Part shown: positions 4,181-64,000 of the stretch, one piece after another
Position numbering within the stretch: the first letter of the stretch is position 1
Layout: every line of letters begins with the position of its first letter
Assembly: GCF_021917145.1 (NCBI RefSeq)
Contig: NC_061061.1
Span: forward strand, 10,714,494 to 10,778,493
From: Hypomesus transpacificus
Lineage: Eukaryota > Chordata > Actinopteri > Osmeriformes > Osmeridae
Direction of reading: 5' to 3'
Length of the DNA stretch: 64,000 nucleotides
Notes under the pieces: model-generated
The model's input: the letters and a program-made list of their open reading frames with translations, nothing else
What the model was told of the DNA's origin: nothing
Databases searched by the model: none
Program-made: the position numbers and the translations under genes

Positions 4181-4680
4181 NNNNNNNNNNNNNNNNNNNN
4201 NNNNNNNNNNNNNNNNNNNNNNNNNNNNNNNNNNNNNNNNNNNNNNNNNNNNNNNNNNNNNNNNNNNNNNNNNNNNNNNNNNNNNNNNNNNNNNNNNNNN
4301 NNNNNNNNNNNNNNNNNNNNNNNNNNNNNNNNNNNNNNNNNNNNNNNNNNNNNNNNNNNNNNNNNNNNNNNNNNNNNNNNNNNNNNNNNNNNNNNNNNNN
4401 NNNNNNNNNNNNNNNNNNNNNNNNNNNNNNNNNNNNNNNNNNNNNNNNNNNNNNNNNNNNNNNNNNNNNNNNNNNNNNNNNNNNNNNNNNNNNNNNNNNN
4501 NNNNNNNNNNNNNNNNNNNNNNNNNNNNNNNNNNNNNNNNNNNNNNNNNNNNNNNNNNNNNNNNNNNNNNNNNNNNNNNNNNNNNNNNNNNNNNNNNNNN
4601 NNNNNNNNNNNNNNNNNNNNNNNNNNNNNNNNNNNNNNNNNNNNNNNNNNNNNNNNNNNNNNNNNNNNNNNNNNNNNNNN
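4181..4680. other. Assembly gap (500 N)
   Basis: Exactly 500 unspecified bases, a typical scaffold-gap placeholder, so the real length is unknown. The right flank reaches a long (GGGA)n tract within 180 bp, which probably explains the assembly failure. Confidence 0.99.
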
Positions 4681-4860
4681 GGAGAGAGTGGGAGTGAGCC
4701 ATAACTTTGCTAATTGACAGTGATGGGTGTGACGGAGGTGCCCTGGCATGGCGGGGGCAGTGTGGGGCAGCAGCAGCCTCGGTGGACCTGGCTGGTGGGC
4801 GTGAAGGGGAACTTAACACATTCATGCGGAAGATAGATGAGGGGTGGAAAGGAGAGGCAG

Positions 4861-21732: not shown

Positions 21733-22183
21733 GGCTGGCGCGAATGGCTGGTCAGAGTCGCAAATCCTGCGAGGCAGACAAAGACTTTAATCAGAGACCG
21801 CGGTACGGGGGTTGGAATCGTTCTGGAAAGTGGGCAGTAAACTGAGGCTATTCAGACTTGACGACGAGGACCGAATGCTGTCAGATTAACAAACGTGTTC
21901 GAACGTGTACAGTGTCTTTGTCTCCTCAGCGATTAAATAATAGGCTACTATCCAGAATCAGTATTTTGTTATGTAAAATGACTGAGACCAAAACCAATAC
22001 TACAGGATATGCTTGGAGTCAGACGACACAATAAAGACTGCTTCTGGAAGAGTACCTTTCATCAATTGAACTTTGCATCAATTACACCACGCTTGTGGTC
22101 AATGAGTCTTGTTGACAATTAAACCTTGGCTAATAAAGAATTCAATTTTTTATTATGTTGTATCTTCTGTAAAGACAACTTAC

Positions 22184-34500: not shown

Positions 34501-35281
34501 GGTAAGTGAGCAATGAAGTAAGCAAGTTAGCAATCAAACTACCCAAATGACTGGGACCAAGCCCATTTACAACTGTTTGAACCCATCTGCCTGTAACCAT
34601 AGAGATATGATAATGAGCCCTGGCCAATATTGTAATTCTGAGTTTGATGTGTGTGGGTGTGATGTGTGTTGGACTGCAGCTGTCTGCTGTCTTTCCTGGG
34701 TGTGTTCCTCATCGCCAGGAATAGGCCAAAGATCAAAACGCCAGACCGCAACTTCATAGCTATGGGCCAAATCCCTGGTAAGTAGTCAGTTCACTCCAAA
34801 CACACAGTACGACCTTATCAACTTCACTTCTCTTTAGCCATTTTAAGGAACGTGTTGGCTTCCCTCGAGTGAAACAGAACACATCAGTATGACGCATGCT
34901 TTATCTTACCTAAATATTTGCATTACATCAACCAAAACCCAAGTCCAAAACCTAAGTCTTGTGTGGTAAAAAAACGGAGCTGAAGAGATCCTCAGTAGAA
35001 TCATTCAGATTCTGTATGTGGCTGGAGATGCTCGACACAGATGACCAGCGTGCAGTGATGGATCTACAGCAGCGCTGTTTGTCTGGGCCTCGTACGGGCT
35101 CTGCTCCAGACTCTCCTACCAGACGGGTGAGAAAGGGAGGGATGTCAGTCAGGTGACCTGAGAGACAGATGTGTTTGTGCCCACAGGAAGGAGACAGACG
35201 GACAAGGTCCAGCCAGACAGCACGTATGGATCGCTGGCGGCCAAACTTTGTAGCGGAAGCCAAAAGATTGAGGATTCGTAA
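26318..35281 (+). CDS. nipal2: NIPA-like domain-containing protein 2 (putative Mg2+ transporter)
   Basis: Eleven exons join in frame to 372 aa: 26318-26437, 29641-29709, 30040-30208, 31323-31382, 31858-31979, 33546-33642, 33745-33880, 34231-34319, 34438-34501, 34680-34777 and 35187-35281. All have AG acceptors and GT donors and compatible phases. The family consists of multi-pass membrane proteins of the drug/metabolite-transporter fold; NIPA members are reported to carry Mg2+, while transport by NIPAL2 itself is inferred. The short N-terminus has possible N-glycosylation sites (NMT, NST, NAS). Recognisable blocks are SLNIQ ending exon 2, GNFAAYGFAP in exon 3, LTVISVKAVSGMI in exon 7 and the tail IQPDS-type motif, here VQPDSTYGSL. 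The exon 7 donor is weak (AA/GTTTGC). ATG 26318 gives MAMDRIPEEN; the ATG at 26324 is an in-frame alternative. The gene converges on pop1. Confidence 0.94.
28091..28291. repeat. (CT)n microsatellite grading into TACCTCTC repeats (nipal2 intron 1)
   Basis: About 110 bp of pure CT, followed by CT blocks regularly interrupted by TAC. A G-run at about 28389-28403 and a CA tract at 28508-28541 follow in the same intron. The long frame across it (about 28000-28680) comes from the repeat. Confidence 0.95.
29778..29910. repeat. Direct repeat of about 33 bp flanking a TA-rich microsatellite
   Basis: ATTATAGTTTCCATTGTAAA continuing to CTTCCTAAAGAGT at 29778-29810 recurs with one mismatch (TTTCGATT) at 29878-29910. 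The two copies bracket an ATATAC/TA microsatellite at about 29818-29877. It sits in nipal2 intron 2, between exons at 29641-29709 and 30040-30208. Confidence 0.9.
31779..31789 (-). repeat. Pol III B-box, probable tRNA-derived SINE remnant
   Basis: The minus strand reads GGTTCGATTCC, an exact match to the tRNA B-box consensus, preceded by GGTTGTT. A clear A box or cloverleaf is lacking, so this looks like a decayed SINE rather than a tRNA gene. It ends about 70 bp before nipal2 exon 5. Confidence 0.4.
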
Positions 35282-36632: not shown

Positions 36633-39600
36633 TCACACCTCGATGTTGACCTTGGCCAGGCGGTACTGCAGGGAGGAGGGGTTGCGGAGCAGGACCAGGC
36701 CCCGCTGGTCCTCGGGCTGCCCCAGCAGCATGTGCAGGAGCCCGGGGAGGCTGACCAGACCCAGGGCCTCCCCGCACCCGGACACCAGGGAGAAGTCCCC
36801 CTGGGAGACCCAGCCCAGCGTCACACGGGAGCAGTGGGACGAGATGCTGGGCAGGGGCTCCGGCCAGAGGCCCAGGATCAGGTCAGAGGTCGGGGAGGAG
36901 GAAGGTGGGGTGAGGCTGGGAGCAGGGAGTGTGGTGGAGGGGAGGGGGGTGGGAGAAGATAGGGAGGCAGGGCCAGGGGTGGAGGGGATGGTGGGGGCAG
37001 AGCCGGGGTCGGGACCAGGGGTGGAGGTAGAGGTAGAGAGGGGGGCAGACCCAGACAAAGAGGAGGAGGAGGTGGGCTTGGCCTTGGTCTTGCGGTGCTT
37101 CTTGAGTTGCTTCAGCTTGCTTCTGAAGTGGTCTGTGTGGAGCGGCTCCAGGGGCCCGCTGCAGCGAGGCTGCCCACGCTGCCCACGCAGGTCCTCGGGG
37201 GCGGGCACACACACCTGGGCATGCAGCTCCGGTTGGCCCTTGGACAGCAGAGAGAGGCGGACCCACACCAGGCTCCTCCAATTGGAGGCAAGGAGAGATG
37301 CAGCCACTGCTGGACTCAGCGGCGGGACCGCCCACTGGCGCTGTGACCTCTGACCTTTAGAGGATGTGGGCCTGCACCAACCAGAAAGCAGCCTCAGGGA
37401 CTTCCTGTTCCTGGAAAGCACAATCACAAAACCAAAATGCACGGGTCAAATGAATGAATGGTCCCTTTGGACTCCAATGAAATAGTCGGAGGGCAGTGAA
37501 CTGTTCTTTTTAACCGGCAAACTATTCCCTGCGGTTTGACAAATCAAATCAATTTCACTTTGGAGCTCATAACGTTGGCCGTGTGTAAGTGATTTGCTGA
37601 TGTTTTGGGGGATAGCCGGCGCTCCCTCTCCTGCTAATCGGGCTCATTCATTACAGCGAGACGTTCCCGGGATGTTCCCATCAGCCACATCATCATGACA
37701 GAGTGGGGGGCTGGACCACAGCAAGCATCAGCCCTATCACACACACACACACACACACACACCTCTCCTACTAACATGAACAAGTTAGGGGAAGTTGGGG
37801 GGGGGGGGGGGGGGGGAAACCCTGGAGTGGTCTTATGGTTGAAGAGACATATAGAGGGTTTTGAATAGACTTGATCTATACGAGCTACCTCAAGACAGTG
37901 AAGGCCACGTCCCCTTGTGATGTCACTTCCCCCGCCTTTGGCACCAGGAGCTGAGCTAGGCTCTCTCTCCTTCCTTCTCCCTTGGCCTCCTCTCCTCCTG
38001 TCACCGCCTCCTCCCTCACTATCAGCTCCCACTCCTCCGCCAGCTGTTGCCAGGGGCAACGGAACGGAGCCAGGCAGCCATGTTTTATGTAATTGGTCCT
38101 CTTGGCAGGTGGACGCCTACAGGGGGGCAGAGGGTCAAACTCTTGTCAAGCTGTCAGGGCAGATCACCAATTTATGCACCACATCAAGGCTGGGGAGCGG
38201 TTGGTGGGAAACAGGCAGTCGGGTTTCTTTCAGAGTGTGGAGCTGTGAGGTGTTTATGACTGGAAATCAGCACCGGGATGCACAAGGTTTGTCTCAGCAA
38301 CCTCCCCCATTAAGAATCTCAACAACAGATACTCACAATAATTGTCACATATCATGCTGGATTGAACTTTTATGTCCCAGAACATCATGATAAAATACGA
38401 CACAGAATGTTATTCTAAACACACTCAATGAGGATCCTTTTAGACAGACCCCACTGAGTGCAGTGGGTTGCTGACCTTTTGAACTTGGCCAGCAGTTCCT
38501 CTTCCTGCTCCTCCTGGAAGCGCTTCCCCGCAGGGCAGTCTGGGTAATCATGGGGGAAGTGCGGCGTCCCTTTGTTCTGGGAGTGTTTCAGCGCCATGTT
38601 CAGCCCCCCCACACGCACCCCTCGGTACACCAGAGGCACCCAGAAGGCCATGCCCCAGGCCTTGGGCAGCAGCAGGTCCCAGCCCACTCCCCAGGACGCC
38701 TGCTCCTGGCCGGCCTGTTTGCCAGGCTGCTGCACCAGCAGGACGGGCACCCTGCCCTGGGGGAGGGGCGGCAGCCTGGAGCCTGGCACCAGCACCTCGC
38801 TACGCATCCGGTTCAGCTCCTGCTCGGGGAGCTTGTGGGCCGTGACGTTGTCTCGGACCGAGCGCTCCCACAGGGGACTCTGGCTGCAGTCCTCGGGGAC
38901 GCCCTGCAGCGTCAGCTCCCTCCTGCTCGCCTCGTCCACCTCTGGAAGACACACACCCCCCCCAGCACAGGACACACTCCTGCATGACCAGCGATGGGAC
39001 TTGTAGTGACTCCCTGTACCCACGCTACACGTGAACAAACTGAAGGGTCTGAAAGCCCCAGTCAACCCTCTGATCTATACCCTGCAGCCTGTGAGGGAGA
39101 GTTAAGAGGTGGAAGCAACATGGCAGACCATGTCAACCAGATCAGATTATTGAAACCTAATTAAACTTCCATACTACTTATACCGATATGATATCGCCTC
39201 AGATCGGTGTCTGGGAGACAGTCCATAGGGTTGACTGGTTTAGGGTGGAGTCTGGTGGTACCATGCCTTATGGAGCGGGGGATGGGACTGTGTTGGGCTC
39301 CGAGGGCCTGGCCTGGGGCACAGGATCCTGCCAGGATTCGAACCTGGGACATCTGCATGGGTGGGCAGAGGCTCCCCAGGAGCACAGGACCAGACGTGAC
39401 AGACAGAACCAGCCTCGGGCCCGCTCGTGTGGGGCCGGTACCACAGAACTACAGTACAGTGGCAGGACTGGTACGGTAGAACTGGGACCATGGATACATT
39501 AGGAGAGGATGGGGGGGGGGTCTCGAGGTTACCTTGGGCCTGCTGGATGCTGGGCATGGCCTTGCCCCTGATCCTGGGCAGGGTCAACCTGGGGTCATCA

Positions 39601-41765
39601 ACAGTGAGACCCAGCACGGAACCTGACGGAACTTCCGCTGTGGAGTAGACACCTGAGGAGGGGAGAAACACACACACGATGACCATTCAGAGAAACTACA
39701 ACATCCACAACTAAAACACTTGAACTGAGGAACCAAGGCTTTCAAACTGAAGACCTAAATCCCTGCAGGCAGAGCAGACCTTTGAGCAGATTCAAGATGT
39801 CCGCCTGTTTTCGATGGAGCGACATGTTCCTCTCGTCCTTGCAGTGCTCCGGCCACCAGAAACAAGCCTGCTGAGACGGGCTTGAAGCCTGAAACCCAAA
39901 CGAAACCTCCCTGAAACACTGAACGAGCCCTTAACCGTCCACTAACAGGTCATGAACTCTCCTTGCAGAGATTCCTCTGTGGTTCTTACGTCACACTCTG
40001 TGGCAGGTTCCAGGGTCTCCGTGAGGACTGAGTGCGACAGCGGTCCAATTAGACGATAGCGCACAATTTCCATTGTGAGGTCGCTACAACAGAACAACAT
40101 GAGGTCAGCATGAAAACAGCAGAACATGCTGTCCACCACAGTCCATTCAACACTGACTCAACCTAGCGTGATTTTTGTGCTTTGTGTGACACCCCTTTCA
40201 TTTATGCTAGTCGACTTGTTGGATATTTACATGTATTCATTTAGCAGACACTTATCCAAAGAGACTTCCAAGGGAGAGCTTTATGCAGAAGGAAAGACCT
40301 TTCCAGACACACCTCAGGACTATCCCAGTAGTGCTGGACCTCCAGGTCACAGGGGTGGTGGGAGATCTGGTTCCATCCCCCAGGACCTTCTTGGCAGGGG
40401 GCCCGGTAGTTTCAGTCTCCCCCTGGGAGCGCTTTCTCTTGGAGGCTTTGGTCCGGTCAGACTGAGGCCCCTTGGTCTCTGTGTCCGGGGCTAGGGCTTG
40501 GGCTGGACCAGGGGGGGGCTGAGAGGCGGGGGCTGGGGCAGGAGGCATCTCCTCTAGGGTTGGCGGAGGGGGCACAGCCTCAGAACACTGACACACGGCC
40601 CTCAGCTCAGGCAGCAGGTCCTGGTCCACGGAAGGACGTTCAATATGTTAACATTCAATGAGGTGACATCATACACATGCATCATCAATGGATAAGGATT
40701 GAGTTCAGTCGATCTCCTGTCTCACCTGTTTGAGTGTGGGGTGGATCCAGAGCCACAGCTGTCTGTGTGTGGAGTCCTGTGTACGGGGTCTCCACAGAAA
40801 GAGCACAGGGCCCAGGGGCTGGGCAAGGGCCTGGCCCGCTCGGTAAACCAAGGTACTGCCCTGCCTGCGCCCCGACAGGCTGGCTGCAGCTGCAAACGTC
40901 GGCCCTGCAATCACAGAGCCCGGGTCAACAAGGCAGGTTAACACGTGGTCAAATCCAGACCCAGGTTTTTACAACAAACCCAAAATAGAAGTATCTAACA
41001 AGCGGTCTCAGACTTATGGACCAGGGTTTCCGCAGGTTTTTTATTTATTTATAGCAATATCCTCCGTTGTCTTATTTTCTCCCTTCCATTCCAAACCGTG
41101 ACCAACGCCAGACTGCCATCTCTGCAGAACGCATTAGTCTATTGCACAAAGTACACATCACATACACAACACACATGAAAAGCCCCCACATCCGCAAAAC
41201 CCAAACAAGCGTCCCGAGCACACGTCCGTGGAGCTGACCTGAATCCTTGCAGGTCAGCTGGGCCAGGGCAGCCAGGAGCAGGCCCTCCTCCCCTCGGAGC
41301 TCCAGGCAGCAGTGATAGGACAGGTCCTGGGGAGCCAGAGCACAACAGCAGCCTCAGCAGGACCGACATCACCCTCAAAAGGTCAACAGGTCTAAAGGGC
41401 GGGAGGGCTTCTGACCTGCAGCAGGCAGTGGCTGCTCATGGCGCGGTAGCAGGCCCGGTAGCACTTGTAAGTGGGCCGTTCCCCCAGGCAGTAGCCCCAC
41501 CTCTTTGCCATGTGGAAGCGCTTGGCGTGCCAGATGTGCGTCTCCAGCCACACGTTCCGCCGTTGGCGCCGGTTGAAGTCCAGGAGCAGGTTGCCGTGGC
41601 GACGGCGGGCCTTGCGGCTCTTGGTCTTGGACTGGGGCTTCTTCTCCTTCTGCCCCAGCTTCTGGCTCTTCTCCAGCTGACAAGGCAAAAACAGGCGGAG
41701 GCTCGAGTGAGCGTCCTTCTCGTTCTGCTGACCTAGATCCGATTCCAACTTGATCCACAGTGTTT

Positions 41766-43026: not shown

Positions 43027-44761
43027 ATGTCTGCCATCATCAGGAAGATAATCAACACAACAAAGGCTCCTGCAGCCATCGGTCCATACAGGTAAAGAAA
43101 TAACACCCGGTGCATGCTAGAATTTTGTATTATTACTTAGAGGGGGTATGCAATTTCATTCAGTTAACTTTTAGTGTCTAATGCACGTCTTGGTGGTTAA
43201 AGGTCCGTTTGTTCATAAAAAAATATGTGTTCAGGTCGTACGTAAACAGATCCGTGAACCGAAATTTGTATAGTAATGGAGTTCTGAATGGAAGTTTTTG
43301 GAATGGGTGTCACCCTCTGACCCAATAGCAATGGAGAGGGTGGGGCAAAGTGCATGTCAGCTATAACCGTGGTCAGGGTCCGGGTGAAAGTACTGGCTTT
43401 TGGCTAATGCCTTTATCCGTTGCATTATGTCTACCGATTTGCGTGGATTGGCAATATTCCTAAACCTTCTTGCAAATGATATTTGTACCTCTGTAGAACT
43501 ATTCCCATTCCTACTTTTTTCTGTGCCAAATATAACTAAAATGCGAACAAAAAGGTTTGGCATCTCTTATGAATCTGATCAAGGTTGTTACTGCGTTTAA
43601 CCACGAGGTGGCGTTATAGCATCATGTTTCAAGAGTGTGCCCGTACTAATGGTGGTTTCATTTTGTTCCAATACAGTTGGATCTGTAGTTAGTTTCTGGG
43701 ACTAGGTTTCACATATTCCATGAGTAGACATGTTTAATGAGAGAGTCTGTCTTCCAGCCAGGCGGTGATGGTGGACCGGACCCTGTATGTCTCCGGGCAG
43801 CTGGGGATGGACCCCACCTCTGGACTGCTTGTGGATGGAGGAGTGCAGGCCCAAGCCAAACAGGTGATGTTCAGACACACACACACACACACTGTCTCTC
43901 GCAAGCAAGCATGCACGACCAAACCAAACAAGTGGATTCTCAGTCACCTTCGGGGAATGTGTTGATGTGTGCTCCCCCCTCCCCTACAGGCTCTGATCAA
44001 CATGGGTGAAATCCTCAAGGCAGCAGGGTGTGGCTATGACAACGGTGAGGACTACACTGCCATGGAGACGGTTGAACCGTTGTGGATGTCATGTAATAAT
44101 GTGATTAATAAACGAGTTCCTCTTTGTTTCAGTTGTCAAGACCACAGTGCTTTTGGCTGACATGAACGACTTCACCAATGTCAATGACGTTTACAAACAA
44201 TGTGAGTGGTCTTGATCCATTACTTTGGTGGCTACAGCACTACAAACCTATTGTTGTGCATCATCTTGAAAGGATTGAACGATCTTGCTTAGTTGACCCA
44301 CCAGATGGCGCTGTTGCTCAACAAACAACTGTCCCAGCATGTATGGGAGATGTGTGTATGTGGCACTCCAAAAAAACATGGAGTTCTACTCAGTAACAGG
44401 AACTACAGCCTCTCGACAGAGAGCTTCTCCCTCAGGATACATATTCATCCATGGGTTTCCTTTGCTCTCATATGCATCATCAGATATTTACTCAAGCATC
44501 GTATGTAATTTTAAGTATAGGTAGATCTGAGACCTTGTGTGTGTGTGTCTAGTTTTCAGCACCCACTTCCCTGCTAGAGCAGCCTACCAGGTCGCTGCTC
44601 TGCCCAGAGTGAGTGTCGCTTTGACATCTTTAACCAACCTATTGTCTTTGTTCAACGTTCAAACAACATTTACTCTCTCTCCCTCCTTTCTCTCTCAGGG
44701 GGGGCTTGTGGAGATTGAAGCAGTCGCGGTCTCGGGCCCTATAACGGATGCCTCCTCCTGA
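43027..44761 (+). CDS. rida: 2-iminobutanoate/2-iminopropanoate deaminase RidA
   Basis: Six exons encode 137 aa, the length of human RIDA: 43027-43091, 43758-43863, 43990-44044, 44133-44201, 44553-44608 and 44699-44761. All junctions are AG/GT and in phase. The protein belongs to the YjgF/YER057c/UK114 family, small trimers that hydrolyse reactive enamine/imine intermediates from pyridoxal-phosphate enzymes and so protect metabolism. Conserved signatures are IGPYSQAV (Tyr21), YVSGQLGMDP, NMGEILKAAGC, KTTVLLADMNDF and FPARAAYQVAALP. Arg107, the substrate-binding arginine, falls exactly at residue 107. The C-terminus lacks an obvious SKL-type peroxisomal signal. Start ATG 43027 gives MSAIIRKIIN, as in vertebrate orthologues. 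It is transcribed divergently from pop1 and converges on erich5. Confidence 0.97.
43601..43616 (+). promoter_or_regulatory. CTCF-like motif (rida intron 1)
   Basis: CCACGAGGTGGCGTTA matches most of the CTCF core on the plus strand. Weaker than the copy at 44298. Confidence 0.35.
44298..44312 (+). promoter_or_regulatory. CTCF-like motif (rida intron 4)
   Basis: CCACCAGATGGCGCT is a full match to the CTCF core CCASYAGRKGGCRS on the plus strand. It lies between rida exons 4 and 5. Confidence 0.5.
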
Positions 44762-47351: not shown

Positions 47352-50300
47352 GGGTGGGGGTAGTCTTAAGTTCTTTGACATGTTTGAATGATGAAGGAAC
47401 AACTTCATCGTCAGCTACACTAAAGAAACATCAACACATCAACACAGCCGCAGCACACACAGTCCCTACATGGGAAGTGTCAACATTCCAGTGCCGTCAG
47501 TACATCTTGTACCCCCGCAGAGCCGGTTTAGTGAATAGAGCTGACCTGTGCTGTGTTTCTCAAACACACATACATGAACAGGGTGTGGGTAGGCCTTGCA
47601 CACACACATCTCAGAGAGAGAGAGGGGTGGGAGGGTGCCCGAGTTATGCGACTCCTCCCCTCAGCCAGCACTTGCACGGGTAGGCTGAAGGGGCCTCCTT
47701 TCCCTAAAAGTACAGTATGTTCTTTCCCTGTTTGAAGAAGGGATATATAGAAAGACTGCATTTGTGCTGTTCCTCCAGCAAAAATTAGCATTAGAATAGA
47801 TGCCCTTGCACAGAATACTATGTCCTAGACACCCGCTTCATTAAATGAGAAGTTACTGATCGTTTATTACCTGATGAAGGCATTCTATAATAACTGTATG
47901 GTTTAAGAATCAATACATCTTTACGGTGTGTGTGCTTGTTTGTGTTGGAGAGCTATATGCTCCAGCCATGACAACAGCCTCTTGTGTGAGTCTCTGTGGT
48001 CAGTGAGAGGCTGGTCTTCTCTCAAACTATACGGAGACCAAGACACACATACTACTGAATCAAAACAGACAATGGCTTCATTCTCCACTGCCACATGTAC
48101 AGCTCTATTTAACATGCCATTTACATTCGTAGAGACGGGGGGGGTCCGAATATTTACATGTGTTATGTAATCCCTAGTAACAGTGCATAAGTCTATGCAG
48201 GCACAGAGAACAATGAGGGAGTGTATGTTGTCGATAGCAAGACACAGAAGCCCCAACCACACACTGGAGAGTGTCTCCTTCAGTCCGAGGCAGCATTGTC
48301 TCACACACTGCCTTGTCTGTCCATCGCATTAAAAGGACAAAACCGTCCTATTAATCTGCCCCCCCTCCCTCACCCTCCCCAGTGCTGGTTCAGTCTATAT
48401 GCAGGGTTATTCATTACCAGGACAGCTGGTCACCAAAGCTGACCCATGAGGAACCAACACTGGGCCTGTAGTGTGTTGGATACTCTAGTCTTGGTTACCG
48501 GGTGTTAATGATGTCATTAAGGCCTTGGGGGTCGGCCTTCATTAGCCTTGACACTCATATGTAACCAAGAGAAGCTAGGTTCGACACTGCAACTCACTGT
48601 TTGACAGTGTGGGTCAATGTGTTTAGGGTTTGTTTTTATAATGCCTCACACGGTAACTAGGTCCAGTTGATCCTTGGGGATAAGGCTTGTGGACAAAGGG
48701 GAGCTGGCCTTGGTAACAAGGACGTTAATGAGTTAGTTTGCCCAACACCCATACACGCCAGAACCTGAATACACAGAGAAGACAGATGTTCCTACCTCAG
48801 TCCTTCTTAACCAGGATTGCTGAACGTCTGTTTTTCACTCCGCAGGCTCTTTGGTGATTTGTTTTTACTAATTGAATCTCTATGCTTGTTTGCACATGCT
48901 CAGACACACACAAACACATGCTGTGTCCCAAATCGCATGCTATAACTTTTAGTTACTTTCAGTAGGCACTGCGGCTTCCATTATAATGTAAGTACTGTTG
49001 CATACTACTTCGTCATGTAACTAAAAATGGAACTGGCCCAGATACGTATGTATCAGTCCCCTATTGAACAGTTGACTGTGGTACAAAGGGTTTTTGGTCA
49101 GAATAGCCAGAAAGGCATGCTGGGCTCGCACACTGCAAAATGCTACTGGATGTAATACATCCTGGTATTTTTGGCATCCTTTATTAGACATTCTATGTCT
49201 CTATCAAAACCCTTTTTTAATCATAAAAAATGGTATGGTATGCACCTACACAACTCTAATTTGAATGCATGTTTGCATGGGTGACTCAGCTATGTGTTCA
49301 TTTTCAGGGGCAGGTTAGCCTGATCAGACATGAAACCGTTTCTTCAACTCATTTTACCACTGAAGCAACAGGTATTTCAGGAAGCCATGACAACACCCAA
49401 TGAGATGGAACCAATACGCCCTGCAGGCTGGGTTAGGGCTGATAATGTCTGTCAGGAATCCAGTTATGAGACATTAAATAGATATTTGTCATGTGACCAC
49501 TCCATTTAGTGATATATAGGTTTGGTTAAAAGCCCATTTACGTGTGGACATGTAATATCTCAGCTGATAAGAGACAGATCAGTTTTAGCGAATGAGAGAG
49601 AGGCCTGCTGTGAATACATACCTCCAGCTTGGAGCACAAAAGCAGGGGTAATGACTGGAGCAGGGGTAATAGCAGGTGTAGGAGCAGAAGCCACAACTGG
49701 AGAAGGTGCAGGAGCAAGAGCAGGTTCCAGAACAGCGACTGGGGCAGGTTCAGGAGCAGGGGCAACAACTGGAACAGGGGCCGTAGCAAGGACCGGGGTA
49801 GGTTCAGGGGTAGGGACCGGGGTAGGTTCAGGAGCAACAACAGGCTCAGGAGCAGCAACAGGTTCAGGGGTAGGGACCGGGGTAGGTTCAGGGGTAGGGA
49901 CCGGGGTAGGCTCAGGAGCAGCAACAGGTTCAGGGGCAGGAGCAGGGACCGTGGTAAGTTCAGGGGCAGCAGCAGAGACGACAACAGGTTCAGGGGCAAC
50001 AACTGGAACAGGGGTAGTAACTGGGGCCGGGGTAGGTTCAGGGGCAGGAACAACAGCAGGTTCAGGGGAAGGAGCAGGGACCAGGGTAGGTTCAGGAGCA
50101 ACAACTGGTTCAGGAGCTGAAGCAGGGACCGAGGTAAGTTCAGGGGCAGGGGCTGGTTCTGGGTTAGTGGCAGGAATGGTAGTAGGTGCGTGAGCAGCCG
50201 GTGTGGGTTCAGGGGCTGGGTCTGCACCTGAGACTGGAGCTGGGGCACCCTCCACTGGTGCACTGGGGGCTGCTGCTGGAGCTGGCTCTGCTACGGCTAG

Positions 50301-53300
50301 AGATGGTTCTGCTGCTGCTGGAGCTGGTTCTGCTACTGCTGGGGCTGGAGCTGGTTCTGCTACTGCTGGGGCTGGTTCTGCCACTGCTGGAACTAGTTCT
50401 GCCACTGCTGGAGCTGGTTCTGCCACTGCTGGGGCTGGTTCTGCTACTGCTGGAGATGCCTCTGCTACTGCTGGGGCTGGTTCTGCTACTGCTGGAGATG
50501 CCTCTGCTACTGCTGGGGCTGGTTCTGCCACTGCTGGGGCTGGCTCTGCTACTGCTGCTGCTGGAGCTGGTTCTGCCACTGCTGGGGCTGGCTCTGCTAC
50601 TGCTGCTGCTGGAGCTGGTTCTGATGCTGCTGCTGGAGTTGGGGCAGCAGACTCAGCCTCCTTCACTGGCTCCACCACTGCTGCAGGGGGCATCACCACC
50701 TCCAGGGCACTAGGGGCATCTGCTGGTGGTGCAACCTCCATGGTTTCTTGGGTCTCCTCCACAGCTGGAGGCTGGGGCTCAGGGGCTGAGATCTCCTCCA
50801 TAGCCACAGGAGCCGGAGCTGCCTCTGCCTCCGGGGCGGGTTCGCTCGCTGCAGGGGGAGCAGCAGCCTCCACAGGGGCAGGGGAGGCCTCTACTGCAGC
50901 CACATCCACTGGCACAGCCTCAACAGCAGCTCCAGGTTCAGGGTCCACTTCTGGTGCAGCCTCTACCACCACAGTCTCAGGGGCCTCCAGTGGGGCGAAG
51001 CTCTCTGGCTCTGCCTCTGAGATCACCACAGCCAGGGTCTCCTCCTCGACATCCATCCCCAGGCTCTCGTCTGCCTCCTGGGCTATGGCCACCAGCTCAG
51101 CCTCTTCATAGGTTCCAGGCTGGAAGTCGTCCAGCAGGGCGCTCTGCACCGGTAGCTGCATCTGGTCCGCAATGGTCTCTGTGTCCTCTGCAACGATGCC
51201 ATTTTTGACAACTAGAACGACACACACACACACACAAAACAAGGGAGAAAGTAGCCAGAGAGAGGTTAGTTCATTTTACCTAGCAATAGAAGTAACAATC
51301 CTAAATTGTGTTCTGCCATGATGTAATATTATTCAATTGCAGAAAAGCTGTGCAAAGATATAATAGAATATGTTCAAGGGTACACTTTTCCAACTGACAG
51401 AACTGTATTCAGTGTGGGAGGTCTCGGAGGATGACAATGCCCTACCCTTACCCTGACCCTTCCTCTCTGCTAAATCCAACAACACACAATGTTAATAATC
51501 ATCACAACGCCATGACAACCCTTTCCACAACAACTCTTTCCCAAGTACCTCTGGTAAAGCACTGCTAAGCAACAGGTCATGTATAGCAAGAGAGGGCAAA
51601 TATTAAAGAAGGATTACAGAGCATTAGTAGCAAATATTTATCTAAAACATACCATGGGTGACATTTCAGATTTTTTTTTTTCGAGTATTCAAGTGGTTCC
51701 CTCTTATGAAGCAGGAAGTAGCAGGGCTACGTTGTGACACCCTGCTCAGTGCTGACTTATGCTAAATATAATGCAAGAGAGAAAGGACCAGTAAAGCTTT
51801 GTCAAGCTGTGAGTATGAAGTATTAGGCATCACTTAGGTGCTTCTGTGGTAACTTTGTTTGTCTCGGTGAAATGTGTTTTCTTCAGTTTGGGTGGAAACA
51901 TGTTCTCCTAAGTTTAACATGATTAAAAAAGACCTGCCAAGATCAGAAACTGTAAATTTGACACCAGGGAGATAGTTTGGCATCTTATCGCTCACAGCCA
52001 CAGTCAAAACAAACATTTCACACAGAGGGGTTCATTCCACAGACTTCCATTGCTGTGACCAAGGTCAGAATTGTAATGAGAAAATGTGCTGTGGAAAGTG
52101 TCCCATTCCCCTGACGGACTTAAGGCAGGTTAATCAACCAATGCATTTCTTTTCAGTGCATGCCAATGTATCTTGGATATGTTGACCTGTATGTATCTTT
52201 TTGGAGTGAATATGGCAGACTGGCTCAATTCTTTTTTTCTTTTTTAGAACTGACTCAATTACAGATTTTGATAAAAAAAAATGTTTTACTTATAAATCTA
52301 TATACCAATCAACCAGTCACTTGTTTAAGCATTAACACACAAGCTTACAGGGACATACTGTAGTCTTAAGCAGGCATTTGTGCTTATGACCTGTCCATTG
52401 AAAGTGTTGCTAAGGGACTGCAGTATTTACCGAAGGTCAAGGTTCACTTGTGGAAAGCTTTTTAGGTGATCAAGTCAAGAAAGTAAACACGAGAGACTGT
52501 AATTCATACAGAACTCCTCTCCGTCCATCCATCCTCCATTTCCGTGGCTAGGAATGTGGTCTAAACCTGTGTCAGACAGAGCAGACTCCCAGGCCTCTAA
52601 AGGAAGTGTGAGTTAACTCTACAACTACTGAAGAAGAAAACCCTTTTACTTTCCACCTTTACCTGATCAGACAACTATTCTGCTTTGGCAGAATCATTGA
52701 ATAATTGTATACTGACTGTGATATACAGTAACCAATGGAGTCAAAGCCCTATTGTTAAAGCGTCTATAAAACATATAGACCTCGGAAACTCGATAAGGAG
52801 GCAGTCCACCATGACAGCCAGACAGGTTAAACTCCTGCACACATGGGACATGATTTCAAAAACAAAGGAACTGTTGACCGGCTCAAAAAAGAGACCAGGA
52901 CTGTCCTATTATTAAACAAGCCACAGCTTGCTCCCTAGCATAGACATTGCCTGTTGTTTCATGCATGACGTCAGCCAAATGATTGAATTAGCAACTGATG
53001 TCCAGTTGGCCGTGATGGCTTCCTGGTTTCATTGGGCTGTCACAAGTTCTGAGAGGACCGGGAGGTGATGGCTGGAATGGTATGTGACGGGCTGGGACCT
53101 AATATGACTGTGGGCCAGGGGCCAGGGGACAGGAACACATTAGGATCCAGCCATCAAGGCCAGCCTCTTTCTGAAGGGGCCATTCTAAAGTGGTATAATG
53201 TACTATGTAAGTTTCTGTGTGTGTAGAGACGGACAGAGCGGCGGATACTCCTGATAGGGGTGCCTTTTGATTGGAGGGGGATGGGGGAGAGACGGAGGAG

Positions 53301-54280: not shown

Positions 54281-55431
54281 CAGGGGGGACAGTGAGCTGT
54301 ACATGTAGAGATTACATAATCTCAGCTGTGTCCATGGCAGGATCCAGGCCCCATGAATGGACAATATGGCCTGTGTGGTCAGCTGTGGCGCTGTTCCACA
54401 AGCCTGTCCTGCTTCTTGCGTGGAACACATAGGCACGCATGCAAAAACACAGCAAACAAATACTCCTCCATAGCCACTGTGTGCCACTCATCTGTATGCT
54501 ATTGTGTTTTCCCAGAGGAAGGATGGTAGGCTTTAGTAGGCTTTTAGAGGAATGCTGCTGATACAGTTCAAGGAGTTCACTAACTTTCCCTTTATCTGTC
54601 TAATAACTCATATCTGCTGATGTGGGGTAATATCTGGAGTCTAATGAACCGTTAAACACGTTGTCTTTTTCCCCACTTGGGTATTTCAAAATTCAGACAG
54701 CTCGCACTTAACGCGTTGCACGTTCCTTAACAAAGACAATAGACACGCCCCCTAAAAATATATGTTTTTGTGGCATCTTCTAAACTCATGAGAATAAAAC
54801 TAATGATGACGTTTTTTTTAAACGTTTACACCAATTTGACATGAAGAAAGATTATTTTATCGGGGCATTAAGGAGAAGTTGTGGCCGGCCGGTAGCCCAT
54901 TATCGTCAATATGTTGGGTTATACCTCCAGCCTTCACAGCACATTAGGCCACATCGTACCTTACTGAACGTTTTACAGTTGGATGCTTCGATCAAAGATA
55001 CGAATGTTCTCATTACCGCGTTCAGAGGCTTTCCATGTTCTACCTGATATTAGCAGAACTTTGTGACGCTGATACATACACCGACACATCGCATACACGC
55101 AAAGTACACAATGTACTATACTTTGTAAATAATAGACGCTGATTGGAAAAACATATTTGAAAAGCATGGGCTTTGTGCAGGTTCATAAGTAAATATGAAC
55201 TCTACCCCCATGCACCCAAGTTTTCAATAGGTACAAGTTACCATTTCTGTTCTGCAGGTCCGGTGACAGACAGATACATTAAGGACTTTTTTTGATTTAG
55301 TAACACTGAAGGTGCAAATAGTTTTAAGAGAAGGACTCACTGAATGTGGTGTCTCCGTTGCTCTCCTCGTGCTTGGTTCCTGGTCTCTTCTCCTGGTCAA
55401 CTGTCTGCGCGCTGGACGAAGAGCACCCCAT
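47147..55431 (-). CDS. erich5: Glutamate-rich protein 5-like, N-terminal MGCSSS, Pro/Ala-rich repeats
   Basis: Three exons (55341-55431, 49622-51211, 47147-47223) join in phase to 585 aa. Exon 1 encodes MGCSSSSAQT; Gly2 and Cys3 form a classical N-myristoylation plus palmitoylation signal, so membrane anchoring is likely. Exon 2 starts with an acidic, ordered-looking part (TETIADQMQLPVQSALLDDF, then Glu/Ala-rich) and continues into some 400 residues of degenerate repeats: first AEPAPAVAEPAPA type, then APEPTPVPTPEP type. Exon 3 encodes a 25-residue alanine-rich amphipathic tail (VLETVAAQAAEVVLQEAQKA) ending KKD. The function is not established. The assignment to ERICH5 rests on the MGCSSS start and conserved position between rida and matn2; the repeats give no homology evidence. 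The mammalian protein is shorter (about 374 aa) and Glu-rich rather than Pro/Ala-rich. Intron 1 is 4.1 kb. Confidence 0.75.
47337..47353. repeat. Poly-G run in erich5 intron 2
   Basis: A GT tract (47316-47335) passing into a G homopolymer. Quadruplex potential; length uncertain in an assembly. Confidence 0.85.
48921..49290. repeat. Possible MITE or degenerate DNA transposon fragment in erich5 intron 2
   Basis: Starts with CTGTGTCCCAAATCGCATGC, a terminal motif I associate with several fish miniature DNA transposons. I found no matching inverted end, so the right boundary is a guess. Confidence 0.3.
49680..50655. repeat. Coding tandem-repeat block of erich5 exon 2
   Basis: Degenerate repeats of 15-33 bp: GGTTCTGCCACTGCTGGGGC-type units (about 50280-50640) and GGTTCAGGGGTAGGGACCGG-type units (about 49680-50160), read on the plus strand. 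Because units are multiples of three and lack stops, several other frames also stay open, including 302-aa and 223-aa plus-strand frames that I treat as artefacts. Confidence 0.85.
53640..53661. repeat. Poly-G run in erich5 intron 1
   Basis: About 21 consecutive G. Strong quadruplex potential; length may be inexact. Confidence 0.9.
54187..54280. repeat. (GA)n microsatellite in erich5 intron 1
   Basis: About 94 bp of GA with a few GGGA and AAAG interruptions. Confidence 0.95.
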
Positions 55432-56042: not shown

Positions 56043-56048
56043 TTTATT
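56043..56048 (-). promoter_or_regulatory. Candidate matn2 polyadenylation signal
   Basis: Minus-strand AATAAA about 400 bp beyond the matn2 stop codon. Confidence 0.45.
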
Positions 56049-56443: not shown

Positions 56444-59400
56444 TCACTTCTGTCCCAGGCGAATCTCCAGAGTTTCTAGCTTATTCGACACAAGTTCAAG
56501 TAAACAGGCGATTAAGGAAGATACCGGTAAACAAATATTCAGAAGACTATATAAAGAGATGTCGGCCCGGGGTTTAATGTGTCCCTGGGCTGGAAGTAAT
56601 GATGTAACCTGTGTATTTGATGTTTTTTAATAAATCTATCAATTAATCAATACACGGACTGTGAAGGATATTATTCTGGGCGAGTTTCTTCAGCTTTTCC
56701 GTCACCTGGTTCTGGAACAACAACACGTTCTCACACTTACACATCTCTTCACCTGACGGCTTGTCTGGGAATAAAAGAGAAATAGGCTATCAATAAAATA
56801 TATTTTGGGGAAAATAGACATGGAGGAAAGGATGGTTAAATAGATGTGAAATTGGGTTAATCTCAGATTAATAGACCACAGCACAGCGTCTTTGCTCTAT
56901 TCTCTAACTTTCTACACAAGGCCAATTTAAAACTACAGTGAATTGCTATAGGCCTACTGTAAAAATGCACACGGTTCAACACACCACTTTTTGGATCGAT
57001 GTGCGGACGTGGGCACACTAGGGAAAACAGGATTCAGCCATGCCTTCTACTCTGTTAGCGCTATACATATTTAACCTCCAAGAGGCAGCAATGTTCACAT
57101 TTTCAAAGAACTGAGCGATGGTTGCAGCTACATTTATGTGGAAAATAGTGAGCAGAAGGAAGACCTATCAACATCCAGTGATTCACGATAGCTATATATC
57201 TAAATATATATTAGATTTACCATATCTCAATCAAAATATACATAGGCATATACTATGAGGCAGTAAAGAACATTTGTACTATTTCACTGTGTGTGGTATT
57301 ACATCCGGAAGTAAAATGGCAACTGGCTCATGGAAAAACAGATGACTGTTGACATTTTCCCAAGGCACTGCACATCCTTAAGAAACATTTTAACCGCACA
57401 GAGCATAAATCTGCGACACACTGAAGTTCAGTAGAAGGCGAAGACTCCCCATGGTAGAGGGAGAAACACAACCTATTCTTCAAGAAACCTTTTTCTCTTC
57501 TAATCTGTGTTTAGACTTATTGTAAGTCTTTTAACAATACTAGTAGTCAAGTCGTTGTAAAATTGATTCTTAATAGTTGATTTAAGTACATTTCTCATTT
57601 GTTCAGGAAAAGTATGAGATGGGGGGGCTTGTGGCCTAATGTTCTGTTTAAACTGGTTGTGGTTACCTTTACATATCCTTGACTTCAGTTTGTTAGTTAT
57701 TTCTCCCATGCGGCTGAAGTCTTCAGCATAATACAAATGCTTCTCGTCTGGCTCTGATGCAATCTCTCGGAGTTCCTCCTCGATAGCCTTGCCCACTCCA
57801 AGGGCATAGATGGTGATACCTGCAAGAGGAGAAACAGCAGACTCTTAGACACAATGCTGTGGAACAGTATTCATACAGCTTTCCCAAGCCATTGTGTTCC
57901 ACTTCTAGAATAAGATAAGGAGATATAGTCAACGGTTCTTGTGGCTGAAGTGTTCTGTACTCTTGAAGAATGCGATAGAGTAAGACAGTACTGGTGTTGG
58001 AGTTCAAGAATACAATTAGCCATTTTTCTCAGCATATGTGACAGGTTTGTAAAGGCGACATTTGCTATCTAGTCATCAGTGGCGTAACTATAGGGAGTGC
58101 AAGGAGTGCAGCTGCACTAGGGCCCGTGGCGAAAGGGGGGCCGTCCTCGATCTCACCGTAAAAGTGAGACAACCTGACCGGGCCCCTTAAGGCAATCTGA
58201 CCTGGCCCCTTGCACCGCTGTAATACCGCCAATTGAGGATCACATATGATCTAGTGTTATCAATTCGCAAACATTTCTCAATTATGGTGTCAGTTATTCA
58301 GAATTATGAGCTATCACCTGCCCAATAAACATTTTAAAAACAGTCAGTGTTAACAACAGCAAATAATTAATTTTTCCTCATTTGCCTTTTGCTGAATAAA
58401 ACAAATGTCGTTTTTATTAAGTAATATTGCCCTCGAAAAATAGCAAGGATGTCTGGGTAATATTGTTGTCAAATATTCCCGCCCACCCACAAACGATTGT
58501 TCCCATCCAGTTGTTGGAATACCACAGACAGTTGTTGTTGGGATACTACAGTTGTGTTGCATTAGCGTTTTGAAGCGAATTAGGCTACCCCATGCCATGC
58601 CCTTTAACATAAAAGTGGCTCCAGAAAGCGGCAGGAACGAAAAGAGCAAGATGTAAGGATGGCAAAGCTGTCAAAACTATCCTCATTTGGATTGTGGCGA
58701 AGCGTGTTGAAGAGGACGCTACGTCTGACCCCCAGCCCGGCAACAGCAATGAGTGTGAAACTCAGCCACCAGGGTAGGCTAATAATTACATAACCTTTAC
58801 TGTCTGGTATATGCAGTTGACATGGCTATTAAAAGTCATAAAAATGCATATATAGGCCTAGGCTACCAGGCAGCGGCCAGGTTAGATATAGTAAACTGTG
58901 CAGGATGTAGTCGGAAAATAGCTAAAGCTAGATAGACTAAATGTAAACTAGCATATCTAACGAACATAAAATTAAATATTCACCATCGAAGTGACTGTTT
59001 TTTTTTACTAGTACCCAGATAGCACACATGACAGATCGAAACGTCATTCATAACGTCGGATAAGCCTCGGTAAATGATCAGATTTTCTTCTCATCTCTGT
59101 GCTCTATTTCAAACGTCGCAGATACGTCGGCTCATGACTGACTGTTCCATTATTCTCATTCCGTGTTGTAGCAAGCATAATCTAGAGCCAAAGACTCGCG
59201 AGTCAGAGCCGTTCACTTTTAAAAAACCGTAATCTATCTTCACATAGAAGGAGCAGTCGTTACCCTTAATTGTACATTATGAGTAGCCTAAATTTCCTTG
59301 CGCATCGCTAAACTGAAAACTCAATAATTTCGCCTGACGATAGGTCGGTAAGCGGCCCGTTGGTGAGATCTGCACTCGGGCCCGCCAAGTCCTTGTTACG

Positions 59401-62038
59401 CCGCTGCTAGTCATCCTTGCATGGGTGCCCATCCGGATCACACAGGAAGTCTACCGTTCTGTCCTGACACTTACCGGCGTCCTTAGCCTTGGCAGCCCAC
59501 TTCGAGACGTCATCCTGGGATCTCCCGTCGGTAAACACGATGGCAACACGAGCGATGCCCGGCCTGGCGCCCTCCTTGGTGGAGAAGCTGTACTCAAACA
59601 TTTGACGGATGGCCGACCCTGTCATGGAGCCTCGTCCCATGTACTGGATGGCCGACACGGCCTTCTTCACCTCCTGGCCTGAGGTGAACTGGGCCAGGGT
59701 GAACTCGGTCCGGACCTTGGTGGAGTACTGCAGCAGGCCCACGTGGGTCCCTGCAGCAGACACCTCCAGAGAGTCCACGATGCCGTTGACAAACTGTTTG
59801 ACCAGCTCGAAGTTGGAGGGGCCGAGGCTTTTGGAGCCATCGATGATGAACATCAGGTCCATCACTCCGTCTCCACAGTCTGGCTCTGTCATGAACACAC
59901 ACACACACACACGTGAGCACACGTGCAAGCACACACACATACACACAGCATACAACCAGGCAACCCATGGGTGATAAAAGCATGATGAAAATAACTGGAG
60001 GTTTTGATGGCATAGGTTAAGTAAAAAAAAAAAACATTCCCCATGACAATAACATTGTTGTGTGTTAACAGATTTAGATAAAGCAGTTCAGTACTTTTGC
60101 AGCTCTTGCCGTCCTCCCCCAGTATGAATCCTTCAAAGCACTTGCAGCTGTAGGAGTCAGGTGTGCTGACACACAGATGCTCACAGCCATGGTCCACCGA
60201 CTGGCACAAGTCTAGACCTGGGACAGAGTATAGGAGGAAGGGAGGAGGGGAGGAGTGGAGGACGGGGAAGGGAGGAGAGGAGAAGGGAAGGAGGGGGGAG
60301 AGGAGGAAAGGAGGAAGGGGGGAGGGGGAAGAGGAGGAAGGGAGGAGGAGAGGAGGGGGAAGAGGAGGAAGGGAGGAGGGGAGGAGTGGAGGACGGGGAA
60401 GGGAGGAGAGGAGAAGGGAAGGAGGGGGAAGAGGAGGAAGGGAGGAGGGGAGGAGGGGGAATGGAGGAGGGGAGGAGGGGGAAGGGAGGACGGGAGGAGG
60501 GGGAAGGGAGGAGAGGAGGACGGAAGGAGGGGGAAGAGGAGTAAAGGAGGAGGGGAGGAGGGGGAAGAGGAGGAAGGGAGGAAGGGATGAGGGGAAAGGG
60601 TGGAGGGAAGGAGGGGGAAGGGAGGAGAGGAGGAGGGGAAGAGGAGGAAGGGAGGTTGAGTATAAATGGGTAGTGAGTGGTTATAGTGAGATGGGTATGT
60701 TTTTAGACTGAAGTTTGGTTTGAATACATAATACCTAATTTACTTTCACATCCAAGCCCATCGTGTCTGCTTCTAAACATTAGAGGGCTTACAGTTCAAA
60801 AGTACGACCTTATATAAAAGTTATTTTTCCACACAAATCCCGATAATTTGTCTGTGCCTCGTGACTATTCAAGTAGAACATGCTGTCTCCCTGGTGTTAT
60901 GTCCAGTGTGTATATATCCTGTCTGATGACAAAGAGACTCTAAACTTCCTGTCCTTTTCAGCTGCCCAGCAACTGTCATTCAGAGCAGAATATTCCTCTT
61001 AATCCGTCAAAAAAGCGGGGTCTGGATTGGAGGATTATCGCTGACCTAACATCCCGTCCAATCAAATGACGTAACACATAAGTACCAGGGTGAAAAAACA
61101 CTGGGTGGCAGAGTTTCGGAAGGGCCCGCAGATCCCTGAAGACAGTGTACTTGTTAGACAGTGTGTCAGAGACTTACTTTTGCAGGTCTTCCCATCTGGT
61201 CGAAGCATGTAGCCCGTCCTGCATTTACACTCAAAGGACTTGTTTGTGTTCACACACTCATGTTCACAACCATGGGTACCCAGGGCACAGTGGTCTATCT
61301 CTGGAAGGCAGGATTTAGGAAACAGACATGACATCACAGACGGCAGAGAAAGGACAGGAGGATGAGGGTCAGAGAATCCTCCCAAAACGTTGAGCAGTGT
61401 TCACATTCTCATCTCTCAAACGTCTGTTTAGTTGCTTCAGAGACATTATCTGAGATCTACATTCAGGAGACAGGTGGACGTTTAATAGGCAGGGGCGCCC
61501 AGGAAGGGGAGCTGAACTCACTGCTGCAGGTCTTGCCGTCCAGGTTGAGGACGTAGCCCTTCTTGCAGCGGCAGACGTAGGACTCGGGAGTGCTCACACA
61601 GTCATGCTGGCAGCCATGGTTCCCCAAGTCACAGTAATCTATCCCTGAGGGGGGATGGTTTAGCTCCAGTCCACAAAAAGTGCCAACTCTTGACATAAAT
61701 CCAACTCAATTTTTCAAGCCTGATATACGTATTTGATCAAAGTCTAATTGGGTCAAAGACGGGACTTGGCCAGATCAGACAGTTTATATCCAGTTTACAG
61801 AGTCCTGAGATTCTAGTACAGCCCACATATATGAATTTATAGGACGCCCCACCATTTACTGTAACCCAAAGCCAATAAAACCTTTTATTAAATCAAACTA
61901 ACGCTTTTCTGTTCTGGCTTCTCTGAATTCTGACACCATGAATACACACTCCCCCATATTTCAACAGCTGCTTAGATGATTGGAAAAGCTCACTTCCTTT
62001 AGGAAATCTCTCCCACTTTAGTCGTTCACCCTGGCTTC

Positions 62039-62072
<34 letters not shown>

Positions 62073-64000
62073 AGCAGGAGAAGTTTCCAGCTGGGGGTGG
62101 GTGGACAGGCAGGCCCCACTCTGGCATCACCCTGAACCCAATAATACTATGTTTGGATTGGACGGCTCCAGGGACGTCTACCCTTACAGAGACCTGGTTG
62201 TGTTGATGCCATTACAGCTAGGGTTGGGGTTAGTTACAGCCAGGTACTGTAGCACTACAATGACAGATCTTTGTGTGTACAGTTGGGCGTTCAGTCAGTT
62301 CTAATTACAGGTTCTGCTCACTGGATCAAGAGTAATAGAGAGAGAATAAAAGAGAGAGAGAGACAAGGGGAAGTATATGGGGAACACACGCTGGCTAAAA
62401 GGGGACAAGCCTACGAGGCTGCAATAAAACAATCAATATAAATCTATATAATAGCATGAGACAACGATGGATTTTTCTAACATCATTCTGCACTCCAAAG
62501 TCTCCCACAGAGACAGAAGGAAGGCAGGGAAGCTGCTTGGTTCTCACTCCTGCATGTCTTCAGGTCCTGGTTGAGTTCGTACCCCGGCCGACAGCGACAC
62601 TCGTACCTGGCCTCCGGCAGGTTGGCACAGATGTGGGCACAGCCATGCTCCACCACCGCACACAGGTCCTCCGCTAGGGCACCCCAAAGGCAGACACAGG
62701 GTTACTCCTCCACTCACTGGTCATACTATTATTGGTGTTGTGACGACGACTTACGCCGAACAAACATAGTAACGTTATGTAACACGATGGTTGGGAGTTC
62801 AGGTGACGTTGTTGTCGGGGTAACGCAGTAGGTGTTGCACACCTTTGCAGGTCTTGCCGTCGGGGTTGAGGGTGTAGCCCTTCCTGCAGCGGCACATGTA
62901 GGAGGCCGGGGTGCTCACACAGAGGTGATCACAGCCGTGGTCCACCACGGAGCAAACGTCTGTGTCTACCACACACAAACACACAGAAAAAAGGCTATTT
63001 TTAGTACGTAAGTGGGGCATGAAGAGGGATAGCTTTGGTACTACAGACTGTGGCGACTACCGAGAGAGGAGGGAGTGAGAGAGGGAGAGAGAGAGAGAGA
63101 AGACGGGGAGAGAAGAGAGAAGACAGGAGAGAAAAGATGGAGGATAGTGAACCATCAGGTCCTTCAGACAGAGGACGACCTCCTGACCTCCACACAGCTT
63201 GGACTGGAAGACGGAGGTCAGCGTCTCGATCTGGCTGAAGTTGGCCACCAGGTGGACGTGCTCCGAGTGGGGCTCGCTGCCCATGGCCCTCAGCGTGCTC
63301 ATGTCCACCCTGCCCACCCCGATAGCGAAGATCTGAATCCCCGCCTTCCTCGCCTCCGCCGCCACCTCCTCCACCGTGTCCTGAGGCCGCCCGTCTGTCA
63401 CGATCATGGCGATCCGCGGGATGTGCATGTCGGCCGGCCGCGCCCCCTCCGCCTCGGAGAACGCCGTCTCCATGGCGTACTGGATGGCCAGGCCCGTCAT
63501 GGTCCCCGTGGCCAGGTGCTCCATGGTGCGCACAGCGGCGTCCACCTCGCCGTTGGTGGCGTAGGTGGCGAGGGAGAACTCGTTCTGGACCACGCTGCCG
63601 TACTGCAGCAGCCCCACGCGCGTGGCATCGGGCCCGACGTCCAGGAAGCGCAGGATGTTGGCGATGAAGGTCTTGACCTTCTCGTAGTCGTGGGGACGCA
63701 CGCTGCGCGAACTGTCGATGATGAAGACAAAGTCCAGAGGCTTCCCTTTGCACGGGCTCCCTGGGAGACACATGGAAGGCGTGTTCACGTACACTCACAT
63801 GTACAAAGGCTTGGATAGAAAGACATACACAGTGGCCCACTGTCCAAGCACACGCACAAACACATGACAGGCAGACACACAAACTCACACACACGCACAT
63901 GGTTTATCTGCAGTGTTCCACTCCAACACTAAACACACTTGGTATTACCTGGGCTCCTCTGACCCCCAGGCTTGTTGGTGTCCTCAGAGACCTCCCTGCC
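56444..64000 (-). CDS. matn2: Matrilin-2 (5' end outside the window)
   Basis: Eleven exons seen, from the window edge leftwards: 63949-64000 (partial), 63188-63760, 62843-62965, 62548-62673, 61522-61644, 61178-61300, 60095-60217, 59475-59885, 57667-57819, 56672-56764 and 56444-56499. Matrilins are secreted adaptors that link collagen fibrils and other matrix components. The second exon is VWA1 with intact MIDAS residues (DSSRS, GTMTG, TDGRPQD). Five single-exon EGF-like modules follow. VWA2 is split over two exons ([18 protein letters not shown]), and a C-terminal coiled coil ([10 protein letters not shown]...) is split over the last two. Every internal junction is phase 1. The VWA1 details ([27 protein letters not shown]) fit matrilin-2 better than -4, and the position beside erich5 agrees. 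The last intron is a U12 AT-AC intron. Human MATN2 has ten EGF modules and a linker before the coiled coil; here five modules are visible and no linker exon was found. Confidence 0.93.
56500..56671 (-). other. U12-type AT-AC intron of matn2
   Basis: The intron of 172 bp starts ATATCCTTC (minus strand, 56671 leftwards), ends TTTAC at 56500 and has TTCCTTAAT at 56519-56511 as branch site. The presumed branch adenosine at 56512 is 12 nt from the 3' end. All three elements fit the minor-spliceosome consensus. Joining exons 56672-56764 and 56444-56499 restores a continuous coiled coil ending [10 protein letters not shown] and stop, whereas no GT-AG alternative keeps the frame. Confidence 0.93.
58069..59414. 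mobile_element. hAT-superfamily DNA transposon with 8-bp target duplication
   Basis: The element occupies 58077-59406 (1330 bp) and is flanked by perfect 8-bp direct repeats CTAGTCAT at 58069-58076 and 59407-59414. Ends are imperfect inverted repeats: CAGTGGCGTAACTA on the left, CAGCGGCGTAACAA as complement of the right. Both ends also contain GGGCCCG. The 8-bp duplication and CAG-type ends indicate hAT. It is non-autonomous now, with one recognisable transposase exon remnant. It lies in the matn2 intron between the two VWA2 exons and makes up about 80% of that intron. Confidence 0.9.
58608..58771 (+). pseudogene. Remnant of hAT transposase first exon
   Basis: The plus strand encodes [13 protein letters not shown] followed by [10 protein letters not shown], the basic N-terminal block I know from hAT transposases with a K-S-G-x-x-K-R-K signature, ending near a GGTAGG donor-like site at about 58772. 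A stop codon precedes it directly and no ATG fits, and no catalytic or dimerisation part follows within the element. It is antisense to matn2. Confidence 0.55.
60232..60655. repeat. Polypurine (GGA/GGAA) minisatellite in matn2 intron
   Basis: About 424 bp of almost pure purine on the plus strand, built from GGAGGAGGGG, GAAGAGGAGG and GAGGACGGGG-type units in higher-order arrangement; one block of about 110 bp is repeated nearly exactly (from about 60255 and again from about 60380). It lies between the EGF exons at 60095-60217 and 61178-61300. Quadruplex and triplex potential. Open frames of 182 and 111 aa across it are artefacts. Confidence 0.92.

Follow-up and report, generated by a model that had tools for sequence, protein, structure and literature searches.

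How does the matrilin gene on the minus strand of this locus complete the coding sequence of its C-terminal coiled coil, given that the frame that begins the coil runs into a stop codon before the coil is finished? The minor spliceosome, which contains U4atac, U6atac and U5 in addition to U11 and U12, recognizes the U12-type donor through U11 and the branch site through U12, and a branch site is usually found close to the 3′ end of its intron. The U12-type consensus quoted in a passage of PMC2831892 is a ATATCCTT donor, a TCCTTAAC branch site and an AC end, and according to a passage of PMC7367187, AT-AC introns are recognized poorly by the U2-type spliceosome.

Matrilin genes have a history with this class. 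A passage of PMC6865273 reports minor introns in all four of them, and Muratoglu et al. 2000, cited both there and in PMC1464127, names "conservation of an AT-AC intron in matrilin genes" in its title. Wagener et al. 2000, on mouse Matn3, is cited in PMC2427018, a passage of which describes the matrilin coiled coil as the nucleation site for oligomerization. The earlier note had named such conservation as a feature of vertebrate matrilins, and the PMC6865273 passage together with these reference titles bears this out. Since a U12-type AT-AC intron has already been published for vertebrate matrilin genes, the case described here is ordinary and expected. By a section title, PMC2831892 also reports that fish have lost U12 introns or converted them to another type, so conservation is not to be assumed. 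We set out the signals, the protein and the alternative excisions for the coil region, within a window that comprises the whole 64,000-nt stretch of DNA analyzed.

Results

Splice signals and reading phase

The earlier note had placed AT-AC signals on the minus strand at 56671, 56519-56511 and 56500, and these positions proved exact to the base (Table 1). Reading of the sequence and a coordinate check give an intron of 172 nt, 56671..56500. All eight bases of ATATCCTT are matched at 56671-56664, and the branch-site octamer TCCTTAAT agrees with the published TCCTTAAC at 7 of 8 positions, the last base being T here and C in the quoted consensus. The intron tail reads CGCCTGTTTAC, with its last base at 56500, and the downstream exon opens with TTGAACTTG, so that the intron has an AC 3′ end and a junction that keeps the frame. 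The same donor, a TCCTTAAY branch site and an AC end are given for U12-type introns generally in passages of PMC2831892 and PMC3584512.

The 93-nt exon upstream of the intron closes with CTC GCC CAG AAT A, in phase 1, and the following exon continues with TT GAA CTT to a stop codon whose final base lies at 56444. The upstream neighbor of the 93-nt exon, in which the second VWA domain finishes, ends by eye with AAAG before the donor GTAACC, also in phase 1, and the G completes GAC, the first codon of the 93-nt exon.

Table 1. Coordinates of the intron, its exons and the other features of the window.
Feature	Position	Strand	Observation
U12-type 5′ splice site ATATCCTTC	56663..56671	minus	first 8 bases are the published near-invariant ATATCCTT
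U12-type branch site TTCCTTAAT	56511..56519	minus	final A 12 nt before intron end
3′ splice site AC (TTTAC)	56500..56501	minus	sequence read
93-nt exon, phase 1/phase 1	56672..56764	minus	CKC cysteines and first part of coiled coil
Last exon, coding part, to stop	56444..56499	minus	ORF list and joined frame
AATAAA polyadenylation-signal-like hexamer	56043..56048	minus	3′ of stop
Ordinary GT-AG intron	56765..57666	minus	GT at 57666 by eye; TTCCCAG ends at 56765
Exon with end of second VWA domain	57667..57819	minus	VWA 130-173 of 174 in ORF 57503-57844
Second VWA domain, over two exons	ORFs 59410-60087 and 57503-57844	minus	140.8 bits
Five EGF-type open frames	pattern hits 62954, 62662, 61633, 61289, 60206 (within 59900-63060)	minus	between VWA domains
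First VWA domain	63794..63060	minus	170.2 bits
RIDA-like gene, two pieces	near 43741-43962 and 44531-44761	plus	2 of 3 RIDA motifs matched
POP1	36636-41763	minus	POP1_N, POPLD and POP1_C domains
NIPA-type magnesium transporter	33354-34513	plus	NIPA domain
Voltage-gated potassium channel, KCNS2-like by eye	20302-21786	minus	single 495-aa frame; BTB_2 and Ion_trans

The predicted splice completes the matrilin coiled coil

Without the splice the protein does stop early, as the earlier note had said, since the open frame 56786..56643 ends in a stop codon at 56645-56643. The phase-1 join of AATA to TTGAAC, which the same note had proposed as restoring the coil, yields a C-terminus that covers positions 5-45 of the 45 in the Pfam profile PF10393, Matrilin_ccoil (45.3 bits, E 7.2e-12), against positions 5-29 for the read-through peptide (34.1 bits, E 2.3e-08); with a cut-off of 26.3 bits, both forms pass. 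We also compared both with the coil stretch of 1aq5, a chain named cartilage matrix protein (chicken matrilin-1 coil), and phmmer returned E-values of 6.8e-05 for the spliced and 0.38 for the read-through form. The heptad register was set so as to maximize hydrophobic residues at positions a and d; in that register the spliced form has them at 9 of 12 a/d positions, the read-through peptide at 5 of 9 and the 1aq5 stretch at 8 of 10. The arrangement resembles that of the matrilin trimeric coiled coil (PF10393; 1aq5), with a CxC pair followed by heptads and the spliced form reaching the end of the profile, although many residues differ from 1aq5. Splice signals, reading phase and the completion of the domain can all be seen in the sequence.

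Other excisions in the coil region

With the 1aq5 stretch as the reference, we scored 38,115 excisions in which the last exonic base lay at 56754-56601 and the next exon started as far down as 56401. The unspliced frame scores 55 and the proposed AT-AC excision 84, which is the top score among the 207 AT-AC pairs tried, 19 of them above 55. Other terminal dinucleotides were rejected: GT-AG, where none of 219 excisions beat the unspliced frame; GC-AG (3 of 27 above 55, best 60); GT-AC (6 of 259, best 70); and AT-AG (13 of 167, best 64).

Three further excisions score 84, 86 and 91. All are 172 nt long, shifted by 4, 1 and 2 nt from the proposed one, and their ends are AA-GT, AA-TA and TA-TT, respectively. 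Because these shifted excisions do equally well or better, protein similarity is accurate only to a few bases in placing the junction, and it is the splice signals that fix the exact base.

Chance expectation of the signals

ATATCCTT occurs four times in the window, and at least four copies were present in 4 of 100 shuffles; for TTCCTTRAY followed by a YAC end the window holds two copies, a number reached or passed in 15 of 100 shuffles. Taken singly, the donor and branch/acceptor motifs are unremarkable against shuffles, neither count being strongly exceptional. The strict AT-AC set of donor, branch site and acceptor, spaced 60-5000 nt, is found once in the window, at the junction of the 93-nt exon. 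As a control for the paired signals we used 200 first-order Markov sequences read on both strands, and among these 400 strands a set of up to 500 nt appeared on 1 and a set of up to 5 kb on 7, the former included. Unlike the single motifs, the paired strict signals exceed chance, and they lie exactly where the protein needs a junction.

On the plus strand, strict donors at 14439, 27574 and 57673 have no strict partner within 5 kb. The same strand carries a strict branch-site/acceptor look-alike, TTCCTTAAC...ACAC at 54723-54746, which offers two possible acceptors; there is no strict donor within 5 kb of it, and it is probably a chance occurrence.

Identity and neighborhood of the gene

Pfam and pattern searches find the domains in matrilin order: VWA, EGF frames, VWA again and, at the C-terminus, Matrilin_ccoil. 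The EGF pattern also matched many cysteine-rich simple repeats, which were excluded by eye. Since the window stops at 64000, the first exon of the gene may fall outside it. In mammals, matrilin-2 carries ten EGF repeats, with a unique segment preceding its coil, and matrilin-4 carries four. On general inspection, no exon resembling the unique segment of mammalian matrilin-2 was noticed before the coil.

For the neighbors, ten open frames picked by eye from 162 were searched with Pfam; three had no match and one matched only below the cut-off. POP1, RIDA-like, NIPA-type and KCNS-type genes are present in the window. The two RIDA-like pieces score 32.5 bits (above the cut-off) and 15.6 bits (below it) against PF01042. 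RPL30 motifs (0 of 4) and the STK3 motif (0 of 1) were not found in the window, which is weak evidence of absence. On human 8q22, MATN2 is accompanied by POP1, RIDA, NIPAL2 and KCNS2.

Two other features of the window were recorded. A 571-aa open frame on the minus strand, 49563-51275, has proline-, alanine- and glutamate-rich repeats and no Pfam match at E 0.1; it presumably sits at the position of ERICH5 in the human gene order. A run of about 500 N at about 4180-4690, which appears as X in the open frames, represents either a gap in the assembly or masked sequence.

Discussion

The signals, the phase, the completion of Matrilin_ccoil and the heptad spacing agree, and the GT-AG excisions that we scored failed. 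We conclude that 56671..56500 is almost certainly a U12-type AT-AC intron, lying in phase 1 within the C-terminal coiled coil, and that it is the final intron of a matrilin-2 gene from a vertebrate. Gene compactness suggests a fish, and the vertebrate is probably a teleost. The class that the earlier note had assigned to the intron is upheld by the only strict signal set in the window and by the fact that no GT-AG excision (0 of 219) rises above the unspliced frame. Compared with the vertebrate matrilin AT-AC introns of Muratoglu and Wagener 2000, the intron is alike in type and family, here lying between two coil exons, and no difference was detected in a comparison made by published titles.

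Removal by the major spliceosome through an overlooked GT-AG or GC-AG pair appears extremely unlikely. Eighteen GT-AG or GC-AG excisions keep the frame, and a few GC-AG excisions (3 of 27) improve on the unspliced frame, however, their maximum of 60 is far under the AT-AC score of 84, no GT-AG excision exceeds the unspliced frame, and all 8 listed of the 18 frame-keeping excisions insert intron-derived residues ahead of the coil's second half. We give equally little credence to the idea that most transcripts keep the intron, so that the encoded matrilin-2 would have a shortened coil. The read-through peptide does pass the Matrilin_ccoil cut-off (34.1 against 26.3 bits), and, as a matter of general knowledge, a stop codon within the last intron would not set off junction-dependent decay. 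Against this, the downstream exon finishes the profile and carries the heptads on, and donor, branch site and acceptor occur together at the correct junction. Because the intron is the last one, a retention product could be a stable mRNA, and we regard it as very unlikely, if slightly less so, that retention yields a stable message for a matrilin-2 that keeps the CKC cysteines but lacks the final 16 profile positions of the coil, with minor-spliceosome activity then tuning oligomerization.

The identity of the gene is a separate matter, as the U12-type call is independent of the choice between matrilin-2 and matrilin-4. Matrilin-4, which likewise combines a pair of VWA domains with several EGF repeats, is an unlikely identity for the gene: the five EGF repeats found are nearer to the four of mammalian matrilin-4 than to the ten of mammalian matrilin-2, but the POP1, RIDA-like, NIPA-type and KCNS-type neighbors match the set around MATN2 on human 8q22. 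For this reason, and from the order of the domains, matrilin-2 is the best name for the gene, and the name matn2 used in the earlier note is supported on the same grounds.

For the U12-type intron of matrilin-2, the sequence predicts both that transcripts of this species are spliced at these sites and that the minor spliceosome carries out the removal. The ATATCCTT donor would be bound by U11 and the TTCCTTAAT branch site by U12 through base pairing, the minor spliceosome would excise the 172 nt and join AATA to TTGAAC, and the splice would complete the coil through which matrilin subunits oligomerize. The value for annotation is that gene prediction restricted to GT-AG introns would probably give a truncated or misread C-terminus for matrilin-2. 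As predicted here, the locus would be one more case of a known minor intron that links the minor spliceosome to the oligomerization of an extracellular-matrix protein.
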